Part shown: positions 1,725-44,087 of the stretch, piece by piece
How positions within the stretch are numbered: the first letter of the stretch is position 1
Layout of the letters: each line of letters starts with the position of its first letter
From: Neoarius graeffei
Lineage: Eukaryota; Chordata; Actinopteri; Siluriformes; Ariidae
Direction of reading: 5' to 3'
NCBI RefSeq assembly: GCF_027579695.1
Contig: NC_083592.1
Span: 31,143,961-31,207,960 of the forward strand
DNA length: 64,000 nucleotides
Translations under genes and position numbers: made by a program
The notes under the pieces: generated by a model
The model's database searches: none
What the model saw: only the letters and a program-made list of their open reading frames with translations
What the model was told of the DNA's origin: nothing

Positions 1725-3460
1725 GCATAACTACGTCATCGCTTATTTATCGCAATGCATTATGGGGGATAGCCGGGGTTGGTAGCTGTGCAGTATAGCA
1801 GATGTTAGATTAATTTTACGTGAGAGTGATGTGAGGGGAGTGATTTTGTTGTGCTCTGTCGTGGAAGACAGTGAAATTGGTGATTGAAAGAGGTGGATAA
1901 CATGCCGAGGGTTTACAGCAGGAAAATCTAAATCCAAATCAAGCTTGGTGAGAAGGTAAGACATAAGTGACAAGAATTCGTACAACCTAGAGATTAACTG
2001 AGTCTACCACGCTGGACATCATCAAATCTCAGAATGTCTTATCAAAACATTTATAAATGAGTGATTAGTTAAATAAAACTTGATATCAGGAAACATTACA
2101 AAACAAATCTTTGGAAACCCACTGATCTGCCGTGTCATGTTCTGTATAAATGCATTTACTTCAATAAATGCCGCTCATGAGGTTCACTGATCATTATACA
2201 CACCCGAAAGAGAACCCTTCGTGGTTTGGGAGTTTTATCGGTCCGACAGGCTCGTTCGGCTGCCGAGTGCTTCGGAACGTTGAGAGGCAAAGGCCAAAGA
2301 ATGCTGCTTTGTTTTCCAGGCTTTGGAATATCGCTAGTTCCAGACGATGAACAGTGTCGATTGTTATAATCTTCTGTAACCAAAGGCCGTTTTGCAGACC
2401 GTGAAAATATCGCTGAGTCACGGTTTAAAGGAACAGTACACCGTACTTCCATAATGAAATATGCTCTTATCTGAATTGAGACGAGCTGCTCCGTACCTCT
2501 CCGAGCTTTGCGCGACCTCCCAGTCAGTCAGACGCGCTGTCACTCCTGTTAGCAATGTAGCTAGGCTCAGCATGGCCAACGGTATTTTTTGGGGCTGTAG
2601 TTAGATGCGACCAAACACTTCCACGTTTTTCCTGTTTACATAGGTTTATATTACCAGTGACATGAAACAAGTTCAGTTACACAAATTGAAATGTGGCGAT
2701 TTTCTATACTATGGAAAGTCCACACTATAATGACAGGCGTACTAACACCTTCTGCGCGCTTCGGCAGCGCATTGATATCTGAGCTCCGTATCAATGCGCT
2801 GCCGAAGTGCGCAGAAGGTGTTAGTACGCCTGTCATTATAGTGCGGACTTTCCATAGCATAGAAAATCGCTACGTTTCAATTTGTGTAACTGAACTTGTT
2901 TCATGTCACTGGTCATATAAACCTATGTAAACAGGAAAAACGTGGAAGAGTTTGGTCGCATCTAACTACAGCCCCAAAAAATACCATTGGCCATACTGAG
3001 CCTAGCTACATTGCTAACAGGAGTGACAGCGCGTCTGACTGCGTCTGACTGACTGGGAGGTCGCGCAAAGCTCGGAGAGGTACGGAGCAGCTCGTCTCAA
3101 TTCAGATAAGAGCACATTTCATTATGGAAGTACGGTGGACTGCTCCTTTAAGTCTGTCTTTTTCCCACCAGAGAAACGTAAGCTACAAACACCTTGTCCA
3201 TTTCGATTCAGTTCGAAGGTTTTCGTTAGGGATTAAACTTGCCCATTTCTTTCTTCTCGACTGGCAGCTGATGAAAGCTCAAATTAGGCGTTCTCTTTGT
3301 TGTAGAGACACAGTAAGGCACACAACAGTTCACTTTAGGCAGCATGGTTAAAACCGGTTAGACACAACAATGCAGTGTTTAACAAAGGCAAACAATAAGG
3401 GGGAGCTGACCCCGAGTATCACCCATAATGCATTGTGATGACGTAGTCAGGGTTATTTAG
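1725..3460. mobile_element. DNA element inserted into a SINE, imperfect TIRs
   Basis: This 1.7 kb segment interrupts a SINE. A 9-bp direct repeat, AGCCCCCAA, lies on both sides (1716-1724 and 3461-3469). The termini are imperfect inverted repeats sharing CTACGTCATC and CAATGCATTATGGG. A 9-bp duplication would suit a Mutator-like element, but I see no transposase, so the class is open. It contains a nested 0.7 kb foldback at 2429-3147. A few bases of the SINE are missing at the left junction, so the exact ends are uncertain. Confidence 0.6.
2429..3147. mobile_element. Foldback element, TTAA-flanked, arms about 355 bp
   Basis: Almost the whole unit is an inverted repeat. The left arm (2429 to about 2777) pairs with the right arm (about 2789-3147) around an 11-nt centre at 2778-2788. 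The ends read AGGAACAGTACACCG and, on the other side, CGGTGGACTGCTCCT, each bordered by TTAA (2425-2428 and 3148-3151). The right arm has a small internal duplication (GCGTCTGACT). TTAA duplications are known for piggyBac and Kolobok elements; no transposase is present. Matching open frames on both strands are only mirror images of the two arms. Confidence 0.85.
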
Positions 3461-3650
3461 AGCCCCCAATTAGCCTAACCTGCATGTCTTTGGACTGTGA
3501 GGGAAACCGGAGCACCCGGAGGAAACCCACGCAGACACGGGAAGAACATGCAAACTCCACACAGAAAAGCCCCCATCGGCCACTGGGCTCGAACCCAGAA
3601 CCTTCTTGCTGTGAGGTGACAGTGCTAACCACTACACCACTGTGCCGCCC
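3461..3650 (-). mobile_element. V-SINE-type SINE, 5' part (split copy)
   Basis: The minus strand has the tRNA-derived head (GGGCGGCACAGTGGTGTAGT at the 3650 side), a B-box-like GGGTTCGAGCCC, and the conserved core with TTTGCATGTTCTTCCCGTG. It completes the SINE begun at 1541-1715. Confidence 0.85.
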
Positions 3651-5520: not shown

Positions 5521-5997
5521 CTATCCACGCTCACTGGATATGAGCAATCGCACGCTCTGATTGGCTACTCTACTATTAGGATATCAGCTCATATACCGTG
5601 AGTAGAGAAAAACAAAGTGGTGGAGCGTGTTGCTGAACCCACCGAGGACGAAATAAAAACTCAAAAAAAAAAAAAGGAACAAAATATGGAATGAAAGTAT
5701 TTGATGGTAAGAATGTACCTTTTTTCCCCAGAATTATTATAGCATTTTTCACAAGTTGCTACAGTCATTTCACTGGTTTGTTTACATTCTTCATCTTTTA
5801 AAGGTCCCATGGCATGAAATTTTCACTTTTTGAGGTTTTTTAACGTTAAAATGAGTTCCTCTGACCTTCTTAAGTCACCCCAGTGGCTAGAAATTTCATA
5901 ATGTGTAAAGCAAACTATGCCCAACATTTGAGAATGGCGCGTCAAAATGGCGCGTTGATAAACTCTTCCCTTGCCTACGTCAGCAAGGGAGATGATT

Positions 5998-6024
5998 CCC
6001 CCCCCCCCCCCCCCCCCCCCCCCC
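5998..6024. repeat. Poly-C tract (27 nt)
   Basis: An uninterrupted C run just upstream of the THAP exon start. It yields poly-proline frames on the plus strand and poly-glycine on the minus strand, which are artefacts. The true length is probably variable or mis-sequenced. Confidence 0.95.
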
Positions 6025-6041
6025 GGATTCCCACCCACTGT

Positions 6042-6353
6042 ATGGATTGCCCGCCCAGCTCAAAAGTTGCCACCAAACATGGAAGTTGTGCTGTACATGG
6101 ATGTGACAACACAGAAAGGAGTCTGTTTTTACTGCCGACGGGAGAGCCCCTGAAGACGCAGTGGCTTAATTTTATTTACTCCAATAATACGCCGTCGAGT
6201 CTACCTAAGACGGTGTATGTTTGTCGGAAGCATTTTACTGAGGAATGTTTCCACAACTTGGGACAGTACAGGGCAGGTTTTGCACATCAACTGTCACTGA
6301 AGCCTGGGTCCGTACCAAGCATCCCTGCCACATCAGCAACAAACACCGAACAA
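6042..6353 (+). CDS. THAP-domain exon inside a transposon
   Basis: About 104 codons from an ATG placed after the poly-C tract up to a strong splice donor (CAA|GTAAGTG at 6354). The peptide has the C2CH layout of a THAP DNA-binding finger: CAVHGC (Cys-x4-Cys) near residue 15, and VCRKHF (Cys-x2-His) about 45 residues later. A LKPGSVPSI tail stands where THAP proteins carry their AVPTIF-type box. A longer upstream-open frame exists, but it crosses poly-C, so I prefer this start. THAP fingers bind DNA in the nucleus and are common in P-element and Kolobok transposases. No downstream exon is recognisable; it may be a deleted transposon gene. Confidence 0.7.
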
Positions 6354-7009
6354 GTAAGTGTATAACTGTTAAGTCGTTTTGCCGTGTTTTAAAATCGGTG
6401 CCACGTTAGCCTTGCAATGGCTACATTAGCTGTGCAGCTAACTGCTTCCTGCAGTTAGCCAGGTACTCTGCGCTACAAAACCAAAAAGCATGCAGCATGC
6501 TCTGTTATAATAGCCAATCAAAACAGTTTTTACAAAGGCACCCACATTCTTTTTTTTAAGTCACTCGTTCATTTCATTTGTTTGTTTGTTCAGTAAAAAC
6601 CCAAACATTTGTTGAATTTATTTTATTTCCTCGCGTCGCACCTTAATGACGTCAGCGCACGGTATTTTTCCCTTCGCGGTTTGTTCCTTCTCTCTTGCCA
6701 TAGTAAGACACCCACATCCGCTTGTTCTGACCCACTGGAGGTAGCGTCACAGTGCTGTTAGCCAATCAGAGGTAACTCGTTTACATGTCATGAATATTAA
6801 TGATAAGACCCGCCCCCACCCTCTACCCTTCCCCGCCTTCTGCTTCTCATTAGCAAAACGACGCACTGGGAAAAGCGCTGAAATGGGGCTTTCTCCCAGG
6901 AGGCTATATCTACGTGCCTTTCGAGAAAGGCTGCGGATATAACATCCGGAAACCTCCACGAGCCCGTTTAAAGCATCAACAAACCACCATGCCATGGGAC
7001 CTTTAAGCA

Positions 7010-14100: not shown

Positions 14101-14112
14101 ATAGGTAGTGGT

Positions 14113-14574
14113 GGCGGCACGGCGGTGTAGTGGTTAGCGCTGTTGCCTCACAGCAAGAAGGGTCTGGGTTCGAGCCCCGTGGCTGGCGAGGGCCTTTCTG
14201 TGCGGAGTTTGCATGTTCTCCTCGTGCCCGCGTGGGTTTCCTCCATGGGTTGTGCTCCGGTTTCCCCCAAAGACATGCAGGTTAGGTTAACTGGTGACTC
14301 TAAATTGACAGTAGGTGTGAATGTGAATGGTTGTCTGTGTCTATGTGTCAGCCCTGTGATGACCTGGCGACTTGTCCAGGGTGTACCCTGCCTTTTGCCC
14401 GTAGTCAGCTGGGATAGGCTCCAGCTTGCCTGCGACCCTGTAGAACAGGATAAAGCGGCTACAGATGATGAGAATGAGATGAGATGACCAGCTAGTATGC
14501 TAATTAAGTGTGCTAATACAAGGCAAGGGAAACAAATGAGTATATGTAGCGGCTAGAGATAATGAGATGAGATG
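14113..14574 (+). mobile_element. SINE with 3' transduced flank
   Basis: A full V-SINE-type SINE (14113 to about 14484: tRNA-like head, TTTGCATGTTCTCCTCGTG core, GATAAAGCGGCT tail) is followed by 66 bp (14485-14550). Those 66 bp are the exact reverse complement of 20522-20587, the sequence immediately 3' of the SINE at 20589-20958. A second SINE-like tail (GGCTAGAGATAATGAGATGA) follows. The 10-bp duplication AGGTAGTGGT (14103-14112 and 14575-14584) brackets the whole composite, so SINE plus flank inserted in one event. Confidence 0.85.
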
Positions 14575-14712
14575 AGGTAGTGGTCTGAGTGAATGACCTT
14601 GACATCTGTGATGTCACCGCAGGAGGGCTATCGGTCTCATCGCCATTTCCGCTATACTCAAACACAGAGCTGACTGCAACTCCGATCCTCCATTTTGAGC
14701 TAATTTATCGTC

Positions 14713-14996
14713 ATGCCATGTAGATGTGTTGCTGGTGGGTGCAGCAACATGACAAAAGGTGGATTTATGTTGCATTCATGGCCCAAGAATGTTCAAACTG
14801 CAAAGATTTGGATGCGTTTTGTGAGAAGTTCACAGACACATTGGATGCCTACAAAGTGGTTTCTCCTCTGCTCTGCACATTTTACTGAAGACTCGTACGA
14901 GACCTTTGATCTGTTGAGGAGCGTTGGTTATAAGCCCGTATTGAAAAGGGTGCAGTATCAACAGTTAAAGGAAAAGAAAACTATAAGAAATGGAAA
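14713..14996 (+). CDS. THAP-domain exon (second, different copy)
   Basis: From ATG to a splice donor (AAA|GTAAGTT at 14997), about 94 codons. It begins MPCRCVAGGCSN, the usual THAP start, with Cys-x4-Cys. KWFLLCSAHFTEDSYE gives the Cys-x2-His pair and the conserved Phe. LKRVQYQ follows. An invariant Trp lies in KIWMRFV. The layout is typical for exon 1 of THAP-type transposases and their domesticated relatives. The sequence is clearly not a copy of the exon at 6042-6353. No catalytic exon is recognisable nearby; it is most likely part of a TTAA-type transposon rather than a host gene. Confidence 0.7.
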
Positions 14997-15345
14997 GTAA
15001 GTTCAGTTGCACCAGTTCTCCCGGAGTGTGAGCCGAGGGTTGTTACTAAAACCCGGGATGGAACGGGGCATGACATATTATCGCTCGGGCAGTGACCTCC
15101 CCACAGTTGTTGCTAAAACCAGTGACGTTCTGTTCTGTCCCAGGTTTTAGTAATTGCCTGAGCCGAGCAGTAATGGCGAAGTACTCAGTATGGAGAAAAT
15201 GGAGAATGAGTGGACCAGCCGTCTGATTTCTCTGCTGGATATGCTTGCCTCAGCAGCAATATCTCGCCCTTATGTGGAAGAAGTGAATGAATGGAGAACT
15301 GAATGAACAACTGAAAGTCAGATTGTTTCAAAACAATCAGCCACG

Positions 15346-15528
15346 GGGGCATTGTGGCTCAGGTGGCTAAGATGCCATACCATAAATCCGGGGACCTGGG
15401 TTCGATTCTGACCCGAGGTCATCTCCCCGTCTCTCTCTCCTGCTCATTTCCTGTCCTGTCTTTACACTGTCCTATCCAATAAAGGTGAAAAAAGCCCCCC
15501 AAAATATCTTTAAAAAAAAAACAATCAG
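15346..15528 (+). mobile_element. tRNA-derived SINE with 15-bp target duplication
   Basis: AAACAATCAGCCACG occurs on both sides (15331-15345 and 15529-15543). The head has an A-box-like GTGGCTCAGGTGGCTAAG and a B-box-like GGGTTCGATTC. It ends after AATAAAGGTGAAAAAAG with an A-rich tail. This is a different SINE family from the V-SINE type. Confidence 0.88.
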
Positions 15529-16149
15529 CCACGAGCTCGGCCTTCAAGAAGTGAGAACACAGACGGGTAAGCTCCGACTCTCATTTAGATACAAAACAAC
15601 AAAAACAGCAACACTCATTGTTTACCTGCATTTAGATTAATACATGTAACTTGTATTGTGTGTTTAAGTTACCGGTATAAGATTATTTAATTTGCTTCAG
15701 AATGTGATTGTCTCAGTTCATCTGATTATTTAATTAGCCTTTTACGTTTTATCAGTGAAAATGCATGCATGTACATGTATGTTGCATAAGTTATAACACC
15801 TATCCTGTTTTAATGAAAGTCAAACCACAATCAGTGAAGTCAAATCAGTCTTAGTTGAGCAAGTCGGTAACGCTATTTCTTACTTTCACCATAAATTTGT
15901 ATTTATATGACTTTGGTCTATAGCTGTCAAAGGCCTCGGCCTTAAAACCGGTTCCCGCTGTGACGTCACGCACTCAGGGCTGGCTGGCTCAGCGGGGCAG
16001 CTCGAATGCCAACTTTGCGCTCGATTTTAACTCTCAAAAATATATATTTTTAAATTCCCATTTATGCAGCATACCGGTACAAGAGTCAAGGATGGAGATA
16101 CTATCCACTCAAAAATCTATTTAAAAATAAAGGTTCTGCATATCTCCTT

Positions 16150-16720
16150 TAAGCGTGCACATGTTCTTTGCTTTTCTCATGCCTTTTGTATGCCCTATCA
16201 AAGTTGGCCAAATCTCCAAACCCCAGTTTTGACCAAATAATCCATCCCTGAGATGGTCTCATTAAGAAACAAGGCCAACAGGACATTCTCTTGGTCCAAG
16301 CACTCACAATTACTTTATCATACCAAGACAGCTGAAACGAGTGATTGTGTCTCCCTGACTTTTGAATTAAATCGATCTTGGCCATTGATCTGCCCTGTTG
16401 TTTTTTTTTTTAATTTTGAGCCTCATCTCGTAAAGAAGAGCATCAAATGTCTTCTCCAAAATCAGGTCAACAACATTAGCAATGTTTGCCATTTCGCACA
16501 GCTAATAGCTAGCTAGCTAGATTTCCCCTTTATTGCCTGGCTTAAAATAAACAGCATTTACTGAATCAAAACGAAAGCAAGTAACAAACTCTAGATTTAC
16601 AATTTTATTTACAGTATATACAAATGGAAATAGGAACTGTAGATTGGCAGGAAAAGAATGAGATGAGCAGCAGCTAGTCTCATGACTTCACTTGCCAACA
16701 CACGACATGGTTGAATCCCT
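16150..16720. other. Unannotated stretch
   Basis: A minus-strand open frame (16149-16385) and short frames on the other strand match nothing I know. A GCTAGCTAGCTAG run lies at about 16507. Confidence 0.4.
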
Positions 16721-16853
16721 CTGGGGCGGGTTTCCCAAAAGCATCGTAGCACAAAGATCATCGTTAAATGGTAGCGCGAGCATCACAGTAAACACACTCT
16801 CTCCTAGTTAAGATGCTCTTAGCGTTAAGAGGCTTTTGGGAAACCCGCCCCAG
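16721..16853. mobile_element. Short hairpin MITE, 133 bp
   Basis: Ends CTGGGGCGGGTTTCCCAAAA and TTTTGGGAAACCCGCCCCAG are exact inverted repeats, with short internal arms (AGCATCGT, AGATGCTC). There is no coding capacity, and I could not fix a target duplication. Confidence 0.85.
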
Positions 16854-16859
16854 ATCGAT

Positions 16860-17638
16860 GCGACGTATAATTTTAAAATGCTGTCAGTCACATGACTTTC
16901 AAAAGAGATTTGACAGTTCCTCCAATCATCATACAGAAGTCCAGCGTCCAGTCCCACCTTACGGTCACTGACTCTCCACAGACCCCCAGTGAAGCTGGGA
17001 GTCCAGAAATGACATTTTAAAAGCATATTGTCCAATAAATGTCTAGCTTTGCTGCACTAAGATCAAAGCATATCCTGTAGTGGCATTAAACTACAGAGAC
17101 CCTGAGCATCAATGGGTCGTGCTTCCATAGGCTTCTATGGGGGAAAAAAATCATGTGATCTGATTATGACGACCAGCAAGAAATAACTGCTGAACGAACT
17201 AGCTGTAAAGCTGAGCGCTTTCTAACATAAAATATTGATTTGGAATAAGAGAGTTAAGTAACGTATTGCTGTAAGTAATGTTAAATAACATATTTAACAG
17301 ACGAATGATTTGTGACATTTTTCAGGAAGCTGGGTTTCCCTTGTAGTCTTAGAGCAGTTGCCTCTGGTTACAACATTCCAATAGCCCTTATTAGCATAGT
17401 TCCCTTGGTTAGCAATGCAGCCTTCACTTTCTTACATGAGATAGCTAACCTAGCTATGTACAGGAGAGTGCAAGAAAAGCAATACCAATAAAACATGTAG
17501 CATATTAGGATTCACAGATGCTCCTCAGTCATTAGCACAAGTAATAAAATGGTCAAATAGGCTTAAGGTATTCATTGTGGAAAATAAACTATCACTTTCT
17601 TTCTGGACAATATAAATAGCCTGCAATATTGTTTGATT
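16860..17638. other. Unannotated stretch
   Basis: Nothing recognisable; short frames only. Confidence 0.4.
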
Positions 17639-17639
17639 A

Positions 17640-18322
17640 GGTGGCATGGTGGTGTAGTGATTAGCACTGTTGCTTCACAGCAAGAAGGTTATGGGTTTGA
17701 GCCCAGTGGCCAACGGGGCCCTTTCAGTGTGGAGTTTGCATGTTCTCCCCGTGTCTGTGTGGGTTTGCTCCGGTTTCCCCCACAGTCCAAAGACATGCAG
17801 GTTAGGTTAATTGGTGGCTCTAAATTGACCATGTCCGGGTTCGAGCCCCGTGGCCGGTGAGGGCCTTTCTGTGTGGAGTTTGCATGTTCTCCCCGTGTCC
17901 GCGTGGGTTTCCTCCGGGTGCTCCGGTTTCCCCCACAGTCCAAAGACATGCAGGTTAGGTTAACTGGTGACTCTAAATTGACCGTAGGTGTGAATGTGAG
18001 TGTGAATGGTTGTCTGTGTCTATGTGTCAGCCCTGTGATGACCTGGCGACTTGTCCAGGGTGTACCCCGCCTTTCGCCCGTAGTCAGCTGGGATAGGCTC
18101 CAGCTTGCCTGCGACCCTGTAGAAGGATAAAGCGGCTAGAGATAATGAGATGAGATGAAATTGACCGTGAGTGTGAATGGTTGTTTGTCTCTATGTATCA
18201 GCCCTGTGATGACCTGGTGACTTGTCCAGGGTGTACCCCGCTTCTCGCCCATAGTCAGCTGGGATAGGCTCCAGCTTGCCTGCGACCCTGCACAGGATAA
18301 GCGGTTATGGATAATGGATGGA
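17640..18322 (+). mobile_element. V-SINE-type SINE split by another SINE
   Basis: The outer SINE runs 17640-17830 and resumes at 18158-18322, ending GGATAAGCGGTTATGGATAA. The tRNA-like head is degraded (GGTGGCATGGTGGTGTAGTG). The interruption is a second SINE copy, which dates the outer one as older. Confidence 0.88.
17831..18157 (+). mobile_element. 5'-truncated SINE nested in a SINE
   Basis: It starts inside the head at GTCCGGGTTCGAGCC and ends GATAATGAGATGAGATG. AAATTGACC is duplicated on both sides (17822-17830 and 18158-18166). 5' truncation with a target duplication is the signature of LINE-driven retroposition. Confidence 0.9.
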
Positions 18323-18519
18323 TTGTTTGCTTATCTTTTGCCCGCTGTCATCTTTCTTATCGCTGAGAATTTTTATTTAGAAAACATTTGCACTCCACTG
18401 TAGGCTACAAGTAGTTAGTTTGCTTAATTAGGGCAAGCTAAATTAGGTTAATTAGCTTTGTTACTGGAGTTAGCTTACAAGAATTGCTCGTGTTAGTTGG
18501 TAATTTATCAGTTGTAGCC

Positions 18520-19430
18520 GGCTTGTTACCTCACCCACGATGGAGTAAGCAGGGTGAGGTATTGTAATCAGTGCGATTTGTTTGTTACTTGCGAAAATTG
18601 GAGATTTTTGCAAGTATGTTGATCTGTCTGTTTGTTTGTTTGTTGGTGCTCTAGCGACATCATTTCTTGGCCAAGCTTCACCAAAATGCACAGGACAACT
18701 CACTAGGGTCACACAGACATCATTAGTTTTTGATGGGTCAAGGTCACCAAGGTCAAATCTTGTAAAAACACCTAATTGGCCATAACTTCTGTTTCTTTGT
18801 GATTTTCGCAAGTATCATGCTCTGCACGACTTTTAATTTTGTTTGTTTGTTTGTTTGTGTGTGTGCCTGTTAACAATCTAGCGTCTAGACGGTTGCACTG
18901 ATTGACTTCAAATTTTCAGGGTAGATGGGCAATGGTCTGCACATCACCTGATTAAATTTTGGGGGTAATCGGGTCAAGGTGAAGGTCAAGGCTACTGGAA
19001 AGGTCAACCTTTTGGTCACAACATATTTTCCATTGTAACTCAAACAGTTGCCGATAGACAAATGTTTACTATTATGAGCATATAGGAACTCCCATATGGC
19101 CTTTCATTTGGCACCATGATCTTTGACCTTGAGTAACCCTGAAAGGTCAGACTCAAGGTCACAAATTTTCAGAGGGCTGTAACTTGAAAATGGTTGATGG
19201 TAGACAGATGTTTACCGTTATCAACTTATAGGAAGTGCCATATGGGCTTTCATTTGGCACCATGACCTTTGACCTTGAATGACTTTGAAATGTCAAACTC
19301 AAGGTCATGGATTTTCATAGGACTATAATCTGACAGCTGATGATTGAGAAATATTACCATTATCAACATATAGGTATAAAATAAGTGCTGCCGGGAGAGG
19401 TTTGTTTTGCCTGGCAACACTTATGTTAGC
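18520..19430. repeat. Repeat rich in AAGGTCA sites, with internal tandem units
   Basis: It begins TTACCTCACCCACGATGGAG and ends GGAGAGGTTTGTTTTGCCTGG, edges I associate with a dispersed animal repeat. Two internal units (about 19035-19195 and 19196-19370) repeat TTTCATTTGGCACCATGA. TCAAGGTCA occurs at 18738, 19153 and 19299, its reverse complement TGACCTTGA at 19124 and 19270, and further AAGGTCA cores in between. TGACCTTTGACCT at 19263-19275 is a perfect direct repeat with one spacer. No coding potential. Confidence 0.75.
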
Positions 19431-20520
19431 AAAACAACCTTTGTTTCAAGTAGGTCAGACTGCGGGCACACAGTACTTACATGACATGCCCTCTTTGCAA
19501 AGCCGCCCTCTTGCATACGAGCCTTGTTAGTCCTCAGGTTAAGGTTGGGATTTGGGTTAGGGTTAAGAACTTCTCAGGGGGTGTGTCGTGTGGTCTACAA
19601 GACTGCAGATAGACACTTCTCCTTTGTTTTGCTTCCAGAGTATGCTAACATTGCTAGATAGGATAGAAACACTAAAGCAAGGCGTAAAGCACATGGTGAT
19701 TTTTTTTTTTTTTAAAATCTTCAGCAGAATATTTGTCTTTGCATTAGATTATGTCATGTTTGGCTTTTTGAGTACTAAAGATGGCATTTGTCAACTAGTT
19801 CCACATTATCGGTGACGATAAGACAATATAAAATCATTTTCTTGCACCTTAAGTTTAACACATGACTTGATTGAAGGGTCTGGATTTAGTTCAAATGTAA
19901 TTTCTACTATAATGCCTAGATTATGAGTGCGATTTTATGACAATCCATAAACATGACAATGCTGACGTTTCAGCCCATTCATTATGCCCAATCAGTTATA
20001 AAAGTCCAGGGCCATACCCAGCTTTAACATCTGTCCTTATTTTGTACCTGTACATCTCAGATCAGAGATTGTTAATCAATCTGACTGCAGCCTATTCTGT
20101 CCTCAATTAGCTCCATCGATACCTGCAGTAGAGCAGTGACCTTCTCATCCTTCCCAAAGCACTCAATCTCTGTGATTGTTGCTGATGAGGGTAAATGCTA
20201 CCCCAGGGTGCTCCACATTGTACTCACTCATAATAAAGTAGGCTGGCTGAGACTTCTGCACAAGCTATTATGTAGCAGAAGTAATCTGGTATTAGAACTC
20301 AACACCATATACTGTACTCTGTGTAATATTACTGGAATAATTTGGCAGTGAAATGGGCTGGATGTGTGGTTGCCCAGCAGACATGTAGGTTCGTCAACCA
20401 GAGATATTTAAAAAAAAAATCTACTTTTGGCACAACACAAAATTTGTCACTTTGTCAGGCTGCTCATAACTAAATTATTCACTAACAACTCGATGACTTT
20501 TTCTCGGGACGTTAGCACGA
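19431..20520. other. Unannotated stretch
   Basis: No gene or recognisable repeat; includes the TTAGGGTT-like text TTGGGTTAGGGTTAAG near 19551. Confidence 0.4.
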
Positions 20521-20588
20521 TGCTACATATACTCATTTGTTTCCCTTGCCTTGTATTAGCACACTTAATTAGCATACTAGCTGGTCAT

Positions 20589-20958
20589 CTCATCTCATTA
20601 TTTGTAGCCGCTTTATCCTTCTACAGGGTCGCAGGCAAGCTGGAGCCTATCCCAGCTGACTACGGGCGAAAGGCGGGGTACACCCTGGACAAGTCGCCAG
20701 GTCATCACAGGGCTTACACATAGACACAGACAACCATTCACACTCACATTCACACCTACGGTCAATTTAGAGTCACCAGTTAACCTAACCTGCATGTCTT
20801 TGGACTGTGGGGGAAACCGGAGCACCCGGAGGAAACCCACGCGGACACGGGGAGAACATGCAAACTCTGCACAGAAAGGCCCTCGCCGGCCACGGGGCTC
20901 GAACCCGGACCTTCTTGCTGTGAGGCGACAGCGCTAACCACTACACCACCGTGCCGCC
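20589..20958 (-). mobile_element. V-SINE-type SINE, full length, minus strand
   Basis: The 13-bp duplication ACTAGCTGGTCAT flanks it (20576-20588 and 20959-20971). On the minus strand it has a tRNA-like head (GGCGGCACGGTGGTGTAGTG), B-box GGGTTCGAGCCCC, the TTTGCATGTTCTCCCCGTG core, and a GATAAAGCGGCTAC tail ending ATGAGATGAG. Its 3' flank (20522-20587) is the source-like sequence found transduced at 14485-14550. Confidence 0.93.
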
Positions 20959-21259
20959 ACTAGCTGGTCATAGGTTATTATATTACATTAGCTACACCTT
21001 TTCAGGCTAGTCATTTAGGTGTTTGGTCGAACAAACAGGGGAACACATTGGGCTTTTTACTTGCCTGATGGTTTAGCTGATATATTTGTGATTTATGTCA
21101 TGACTGGACCGACACAGAGCGATCATTTGAATCTAACATTAGCTAACAAAATATAACAGTAGCTAGACTCTTCCCATTAAAAATTGAAATTTCACTAGCT
21201 AGCTAGTGAAAAATAGCTTGCTGCTAGATATATATTTCTGAAATGATATTAAGCTTTTG

Positions 21260-21727
21260 GGCGGCACGGTGGTGTAGCACCCGGACAGTTTACAGAGCGT
21301 CCCAACTTTTTTGAAATTGGGGTTGTCTATCTGTAATTAATATAGCGTATATCAAGGTGGGGGGCGGCACGGTGGTGTAGTGGTTAGCGCTGTCGCCTCA
21401 CAGCAAGAAGTTCCGGGTTCAAGCCCCGTGGCCGGCAAGGGCCCTTCTGTGTGGAGTTTGCATGTTCTCCCCGTGTCTGCGTGGGTTTCCTCCGGGTGCT
21501 CCGGTTTCCCCCACAGTCCAAAGACATGCAGGCTAGGTTAACTGTTGACTCTAATTTGACCATAGGTGTGAATGGTTGTCTGTGTCTACCAGTATATGTG
21601 TCAGCCCTGTGATGACCTGGCGACTTGTCCAGGGTGTACCCCGCCTTTCACTCGTAGTCAGCTAGGATAGGCTCTAGCTCGCCTGCGACCCTGTAGAAGG
21701 ATAAAACGGCTAGAGATAATGAGATGA
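21260..21727 (+). mobile_element. Chimeric SINE with an internal foreign segment
   Basis: A 15-bp duplication GATATTAAGCTTTTG (21245-21259 and 21728-21742) brackets one insertion. Inside are the first 18 nt or so of the SINE head (GGCGGCACGGTGGTGTAG), then about 84 bp of non-SINE sequence, then a full SINE from 21363. The foreign part includes a Tc1-like terminal end (CCAACTTTTTTGAAATTGGG) and matches 30305-30387 with about two differences. Confidence 0.85.
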
Positions 21728-21744
21728 GATATTAAGCTTTTGTT

Positions 21745-25322: not shown

Positions 25323-25643
25323 CATCCATTATCCGTAGCTACTTATCCTGTGCAGGGTCGCAGGCAAGCTGGAGCCTATCCCAGCTGACTATGGGTGAGA
25401 GGCGGGGTACACCCTGGACAAGTCGCCAGATCATCGCAGGGCTAACACAGAGACACAGACAACAATTCACACCTACGGTCAATTTAGAGCCACCAATTAA
25501 CCTAACCTTTGGACTGTGGGGGAAACCAGAGCACCCGGAGGAAACAGGGAGAACATGCAAACTCCACACAGAAAGACTCGAACCCAGAACCTTCTTGCTG
25601 TGAGGCGGCACTGCTAACCACTACACCACCGTGCCACCCGTTT
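25323..25643 (-). mobile_element. V-SINE-type SINE, minus strand
   Basis: AATACATC is duplicated on both sides (25315-25322 and 25644-25651). The core carries internal deletions compared with the other copies. It is inserted in the Tc1-like relic. Confidence 0.88.

Positions 25644-26391: not shown

Positions 26392-44087
<17,696 letters not shown>

Follow-up and report, generated by a model that had tools for sequence, protein, structure and literature searches.

The locus considered here raises the question of whether unique DNA attached to a retroelement inside a target duplication has arrived there by 3′ transduction. It lies in a 64,000-nucleotide (nt) stretch of the Neoarius graeffei genome (the window; contig NC_083592.1 of assembly GCF_027579695.1, positions 31,143,961 to 31,207,960), in which a short interspersed element (SINE) at 14.1 kb is followed by 66 bp that recur in inverted orientation next to another SINE at 20.5 kb. 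In 3′ transduction by long interspersed elements (LINEs) and SVA elements, DNA from just 3′ of one retroelement copy is found at the 3′ end of another, and the original prediction took the 14.1-kb SINE to be a daughter of the 20.5-kb SINE produced in this way. The flank was indeed copied from the 20.5-kb locus, but the body of the 14.1-kb SINE does not match that of its supposed source. On this evidence, the 14.1-kb unit would be a mosaic of three sources, one each for the body, the flank and the end.

The composite at 14.1 kb and its match at 20.5 kb

One exact 10-bp duplication, spanning 14103–14584, holds a full SINE, the 66-bp segment and a second SINE tail (Table 1). This arrangement had been predicted, and the second tail is real. 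The 66 bp at 14485–14550 (forward strand) are identical in reverse complement to 20587–20522 (66/66, E = 2e-30), and the SINE that adjoins the latter has a target duplication of its own, an exact match of 13/13, also as expected. Chance agreement of target duplications was estimated from 5000 draws of random window pairs (20 nt by 24 nt). The length of the 14.1-kb duplication was reached in 0.0006 of the draws, as was that of the ATGACCAGCTAGT duplication at 20.5 kb. When the inner border between the first tail and the 66 bp was treated as a duplication end, only 4 nt were obtained, a length reached in 0.67 of random draws.

The exact inverted run comprises 78 nt (14473–14550 and 20522–20599), 12 nt of which are SINE tail. 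Because the run holds both the 3′ target duplication and the last 12 tail nucleotides of the 20.5-kb SINE, the segment is a copy of that SINE's 3′ junction. Copying proceeded from 20.5 kb to 14.1 kb, because the segment holds the source's own 3′ target duplication and the 20.5-kb sequence continues into other DNA. Neither a similarity search nor an ungapped scan of the window allowing up to 30 mismatches in 66 revealed a further full-length copy of the 66 bp in the 64 kb; with two occurrences only, the segment did not behave as a dispersed repeat within the window. A larger inverted duplication was considered and rejected, since the exact match ends on both sides of the 78 nt and the searched flanks in the window give otherwise short, weak matches. 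Hence, a source flank that is unique within the window is joined to an element inside a new target duplication, as 3′ transduction would have it. The presence of all parts inside one target duplication, as expected of template switching by a LINE enzyme, was found both here and in a second chimera at 21245–21742.

Table 1. Positions in the window of the parts of both chimeras and of their matches.
Feature	Position	Strand	Basis
Target duplication AGGTAGTGGT, 5′ copy	14103–14112	+	10/10 match with 14575–14584
SINE body and first tail (CTACAGATGATGAGAATGAGATGAGA), GTAGAACAGG type	14113–14484	+	13-segment alignment
Last 12 nt of first tail, same as tail of 20.5-kb SINE	14473–14484	+	78-nt exact inverted match
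Copied 66-bp segment; final 3 nt (AGC) common to second tail	14485–14550	+	match to 20522–20587
Second SINE tail, young type (CTAGAG)	14548–14574	+	identical to tails at 18131 (+) and 38008 (−)
Target duplication AGGTAGTGGT, 3′ copy	14575–14584	+	10/10 match with 14103–14112
Young-type SINE nested in older SINE	17833–18157	+	tail identical to second tail at 14548
66-bp template: 3′ flank of source SINE with most of its 3′ target duplication	20522–20587	−	similarity search
Target duplication ATGACCAGCTAGT (13 bp), 3′ copy	20576–20588	−	13/13
Source-side SINE, GTAGAAGG plus CTACAA, four private events	20589–20958	−	13-segment alignment
Target duplication ATGACCAGCTAGT (13 bp), 5′ copy	20959–20971	−	13/13
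Target duplication GATATTAAGCTTTTG (15 bp), 5′ copy	21245–21259	+	15/15
Isolated 18-bp SINE head (GGCGGCACGGTGGTGTAG)	21260–21277	+	sequence comparison
Filler, 82 bp	21280–21361	+	81/82 identical to 30307–30388
Complete SINE	21363–21727	+	13-segment alignment
Target duplication GATATTAAGCTTTTG, 3′ copy	21728–21742	+	15/15
Closest match of filler: dispersed-element end plus 35 bp of flank	30307–30388	+	ungapped scan

Origin of the body and of the second tail

A similarity search with 20958–20589 revealed 13 SINE segments of at least 150 nt in the window, the query included, and three short pieces, two of which make up one fragment at 26.7 kb and the third of which is the second tail at 14548. 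Private events and length types were defined in an alignment of the 13 segments, all from the 64 kb. Of the family members, the piece at 3455–3649 has a head but no tail and stops abruptly after about 195 nt, and the 5′-truncated SINE at 29923–30213 has, by eye, an apparent 15-bp duplication, GAGACCCCGAACTGT.

Over 361 aligned bases, the body of the 14.1-kb SINE differs from the source by 17 substitutions (8 outside CpG contexts) and six gaps. The two also belong to different length types: GTAGAACAGG is present in the SINEs at 14.1 kb, 30213 and 24111, and GTAGAAGG in the source and the SINEs at 38351, 17833 and 21363. In addition, the 14.1-kb copy reads AAGAAGGGTCTGGG (14 nt) at a position at which the source reads AAGAAGGTCCGGG (13 nt). 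None of the four events private to the source (three substitutions and a one-base gap) is present in the 14.1-kb body. These four could be later changes at the source, and many of the differences are confined to the 14.1-kb copy, where they may have arisen by mutation afterwards; the length diagnostics are harder than private changes to explain by later mutation. If one RNA had carried the source SINE together with its flank, body and flank should agree with the source to a similar degree, and they do not. Thus, the predicted descent of the 14.1-kb SINE from the 20.5-kb SINE was not supported, although later conversion of the source could still hide it. From the length diagnostics and the missing source-private events, the body and the 66-bp segment appear to be of different origin.

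The second tail, AGCGGCTAGAGATAATGAGATGAGATG, belongs to the youngest type and matches the tails at 18131 and 38008 without a difference over 28–29 nt. It reads CTAGAG where the first tail reads CTACAG, and altogether the two tails differ at three places (C/G, G/A and a 6-bp difference), at which the second tail has the young-type state. An out-and-back switch that duplicated the SINE's own tail was disfavoured for this reason. The tail of the SINE at 17833–18157 is a possible local template. By eye, that SINE, which is 5′-truncated, splits an old SINE within 17640–18320 and has an apparent 9-bp duplication, AAATTGACC.

The first switch took place within or at the border of the 12-nt tail run, where the tail sequence is common to both SINEs. 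For the second, a restart at GTAGC, shared by flank and SINE tail, had been proposed. A short microhomology is present at the junction, but it is not GTAGC, as only AGC is shared in register. Among the 11 matches to the tail motif besides the junction itself, nine share AGC with the flank and two share less, one of these being not obviously a SINE tail. Two tails fall outside the motif, one with AAGC at 18167 and one, at 25323–25638, in which GTAGC is shifted from the register by three bases and TACGG comes next; hence the latter cannot have supplied GGCTAGAG at the 14.1-kb junction. Homology at the 14.1-kb switches amounts to 12 nt of tail and AGC, and by formula at least 3 nt would be expected at a random junction in about 5% of cases.

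It had further been suggested that, through the switch, the transcript acquired a new tail for use by the LINE enzyme. In fish L2 LINEs and the SINEs partnered with them, a hairpin with a GGAUA loop is thought to be the recognition target of the enzyme, as outlined in PMC2653535, and recognition of LINE 3′ ends is described as stringent (PMC3747384). The start of the second tail lies within the 3′ arm (AGCGG) of a predicted tail stem, and the tail is devoid of the 5′ arm and of GGATA. The 50-nt end piece with the second tail was predicted to have no structure (0 kcal/mol), as compared with −5.7 to −10.1 kcal/mol for three tail pieces with both arms and −2.7 kcal/mol for a 21-nt inner piece. 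Of the pieces with both arms, one folded clearly better than its shuffles (z −2.5) and the others did not (z −0.6 and +1.4), so that the predicted stem is weakly supported, and the predicted folds do not place GGATA in a hairpin loop. Judged from these models, the suggested role of the new tail is doubtful. No known RNA family was matched at gathering thresholds.

A second chimera and the age of the fillers

The chimera at 21245–21742 was located through its duplication, without regard to the position of any template. It consists of the duplication, an 18-bp SINE head, an 82-bp filler, a whole SINE and the duplication again. The GATATTAAGCTTTTG duplication was reached in 0.0002 of 5000 random pairs, and the inner border gave 4 nt. 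The filler's closest match lies 9 kb away on the same strand. The 35 nt beyond GGGGTTGT were found in the window only at 30307–30388 and at 21327 (ungapped scan, up to 12 mismatches), and the other copies of the dispersed-element end in the window, at 40428 (+), 38879 (−) and 29580 (−), have other flanks in all three cases. The filler thus spans an apparently locus-specific junction, and 30307–30388 is, from sequence comparison, its probable template. At the filler borders there are CA on the left and one G on the right, neither side being clearly matched; hence there is no clear microhomology at this chimera.

Private events number 15/375 nt in the SINE at 14113 (14113–14487) and 13/369 in that at 21363 (21363–21731). 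The corresponding values for the four other SINEs with a GAGATGAGAT tail are 4/374 (20958), 3/370 (38351), 1/291 (30213) and 0/325 (17833), the last being the young SINE at 17833–18157, free of private events among the 13 segments compared. The filler and second tail at 14.1 kb show 0/90 private events, and the filler and head of the second chimera 1/100. By Fisher's test, the difference between body and filler gave p 0.038 at 14.1 kb (10 against 0 events and p 0.11 without CpG sites), p 0.16 in the second chimera (0.20 without CpG sites) and p 0.037 for both combined (0.11 without CpG sites). This comparison leans towards old SINEs with younger patches and is suggestive only. The two filler-bearing SINEs together have 28/744 private events, as compared with 8/1360 in the four others (p 2e-7, a contrast seen post hoc), which may reflect age, unsampled subfamilies or error-prone synthesis.

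The window is repeat-rich, and its elements point to teleost DNA. By eye, the open frames listed at 14–21 kb include mobile-element-like pieces, with no clear host gene among them; the frames at 14704–14997 and 5874–6362 resemble pieces of THAP-type zinc fingers. A close, inverted and near-identical pair at 2462–2570 and about 2996–3115, with exact runs of 74 and 46 nt, perhaps represents the ends of a DNA element.

Proposed local patching and its alternatives

The explanation favoured here, to which we give about an even chance of being correct, is that template switching, guided by microhomology or by homology between tails, introduced short patches of neighbouring DNA at SINE ends, probably once the SINEs were already in place. 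An older SINE of the GTAGAACAGG type would have been present at 14113 in its own target duplication, and copying of the patch probably came later than this insertion. Breakage in the SINE tail, or stalling of copying there, would have allowed the growing end to pair, by way of the tail repeat (ATGAGATGAGAT...), with the tail of the inverted SINE at a distance of 6 kb, and 66 nt of that SINE's unique flank would then have been copied. Copying would have left this template at AGC and continued along a young-type SINE tail, and closure onto the 3′ end of the old SINE would again have used the tail repeat. What results would be a templated patch of nearby DNA with a SINE tail on either side, and the target duplication around it would be older and undisturbed. 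The parts, junctions, identities and type differences at 14.1 kb are observed directly; the order of events, DNA rather than RNA as the template, and the source of the second tail, whether a nearby SINE or an aborted, 5′-truncated SINE insertion into the old tail, we infer.

Local patches are favoured mainly because the closest matches of both fillers lie within 9 kb, the second having been found regardless of template position. Both fillers have nearby closest matches in the window (6 kb away and inverted, and 9 kb away), with the donors intact, as is characteristic of local templated insertion. Several considerations weigh against this explanation. Selection accounts in part for the nearness of the first template, as the locus was picked from this window alone. 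Among 587 non-SINE tiles of 82 bp, 41 have a match of at least 95% over at least 75 bp elsewhere in the window, by position mostly in apparent longer repeats, and hence the probability that the second filler's match is nearby by chance is not negligible. The age contrast is weak and not significant without CpG sites, and the private events may include diagnostics of subfamilies unsampled in 64 kb. Finally, the two tails at 14.1 kb differ, so that a simple out-and-back switch within one SINE is insufficient and a third template is needed.

Alternatively, the whole unit could have been formed in one retrotransposition from several RNAs, starting on a young-type SINE RNA (the second tail), jumping at AGC to an RNA that had been read through from the 20.5-kb SINE (the 66-nt flank and the tail end), jumping again through the tail repeat to an RNA of the GTAGAACAGG type and finishing at its 5′ end. 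The enclosure of the entire unit in one exact 10-bp duplication is consistent with this course. The enzyme might pause at the first jump, which would fall in the 3′ arm of the predicted stem. Past the source SINE, TTTT is first met after about 145 nt, at 20442, and a polymerase III read-through RNA would therefore include the 66 nt. Chimeras made by LINEs are documented: 452 Alu/L1 chimeras with bounding duplications of at least 7 bp are put down to RNA ligation or template switching, as outlined in PMC13174262. However, this explanation requires two jumps, three RNAs and a template that is 6 kb away by coincidence, and the template of the second chimera is nearby too; it also leaves unexplained, though the point is weak, the 15 private events in the body against none in the filler and second tail. 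Overall, a multi-template retrotransposition is the strongest alternative and a possible but somewhat unlikely origin of the unit.

The 3′ transduction itself could be retained if read-through of the 20.5-kb SINE led to the insertion at 14.1 kb and gene conversion from a young SINE afterwards replaced the body of the source, thereby hiding the parentage. Among the window's six SINEs with a GAGATGAGAT tail, only the source combines GTAGAAGG with CTAC, as could remain at a conversion breakpoint, and an inverted SINE with 98% identity is located 2.4 kb from the source; however, the same combination is possibly that of a mere intermediate subfamily. An unseen conversion event would have to be added to a jump for the second tail, and the transcript, with the second tail at its end, would be devoid of GGATA and of one arm of the predicted stem. 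Transduction followed by conversion is accordingly considered improbable. Even less credence is given to a third locus outside the window, where the composite would have been assembled or from which it would have been copied, both loci here being side branches; no positive evidence for such a locus was found, and the 66 bp occur only twice in the window.

As in transduction by LINE and SVA elements, unique DNA from 3′ of one copy is found at the 3′ end of another within a target duplication; unlike in such transduction, the 14.1-kb body mismatches the source and the unit ends in a second tail, which is of a third type. The Alu/L1 and U6/L1 chimeras outlined in PMC13174262 likewise have several parts in one target duplication, but they join LINE-1 to other RNAs, whereas here SINE ends enclose 66 nt of unique flank from 6 kb away. 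Templated sequence insertions of classes 1 and 2, as presented in PMC5110952, share with these fillers the short piece from elsewhere and the intact donor, and class 2 also a junction microhomology such as that at 14.1 kb; they differ in their distant origin and, for class 2, in lacking target duplications, whereas the piece here is local and the duplications are probably those of the host SINE. In zebrafish, additional nucleotides are present in about half of ZfL2 inserts and are presumed to have been copied from flanking genomic or LINE DNA (PMC4760211, PMC4245944). This is a comparable process in a fish LINE system, but those are described as "several extra nucleotides" at the 5′ end, whereas the fillers here are 66 and 82 nt long and one of the two is at the 3′ end. 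The duplications measured here (10, 13 and 15 bp) are also longer than those of L2, reported to peak at 3–5 bp (PMC4245944). A SINE with a local filler between SINE ends was not found in the literature, as judged mostly by titles and abstract openings.

A broader proposal, which we regard as unlikely at present, is that SINE termini in this genome undergo repeated, error-prone copy-in of 60–90 nt from 6–9 kb away, leaving the pattern of SINE end, filler and SINE end in an intact duplication. If so, chimeric "transductions" of non-autonomous elements would often be scars of local repair and not products of retrotransposition. Should the local patching at these two loci hold, unique flank beside a SINE in an intact target duplication would be no proof of 3′ transduction, and source–daughter trees built from such segments could mislead, so that the body needs to be tested against the source as well. 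With two similar cases in 64 kb, SINE ends would then provide a convenient natural record of short-range template switching in a vertebrate germ line.

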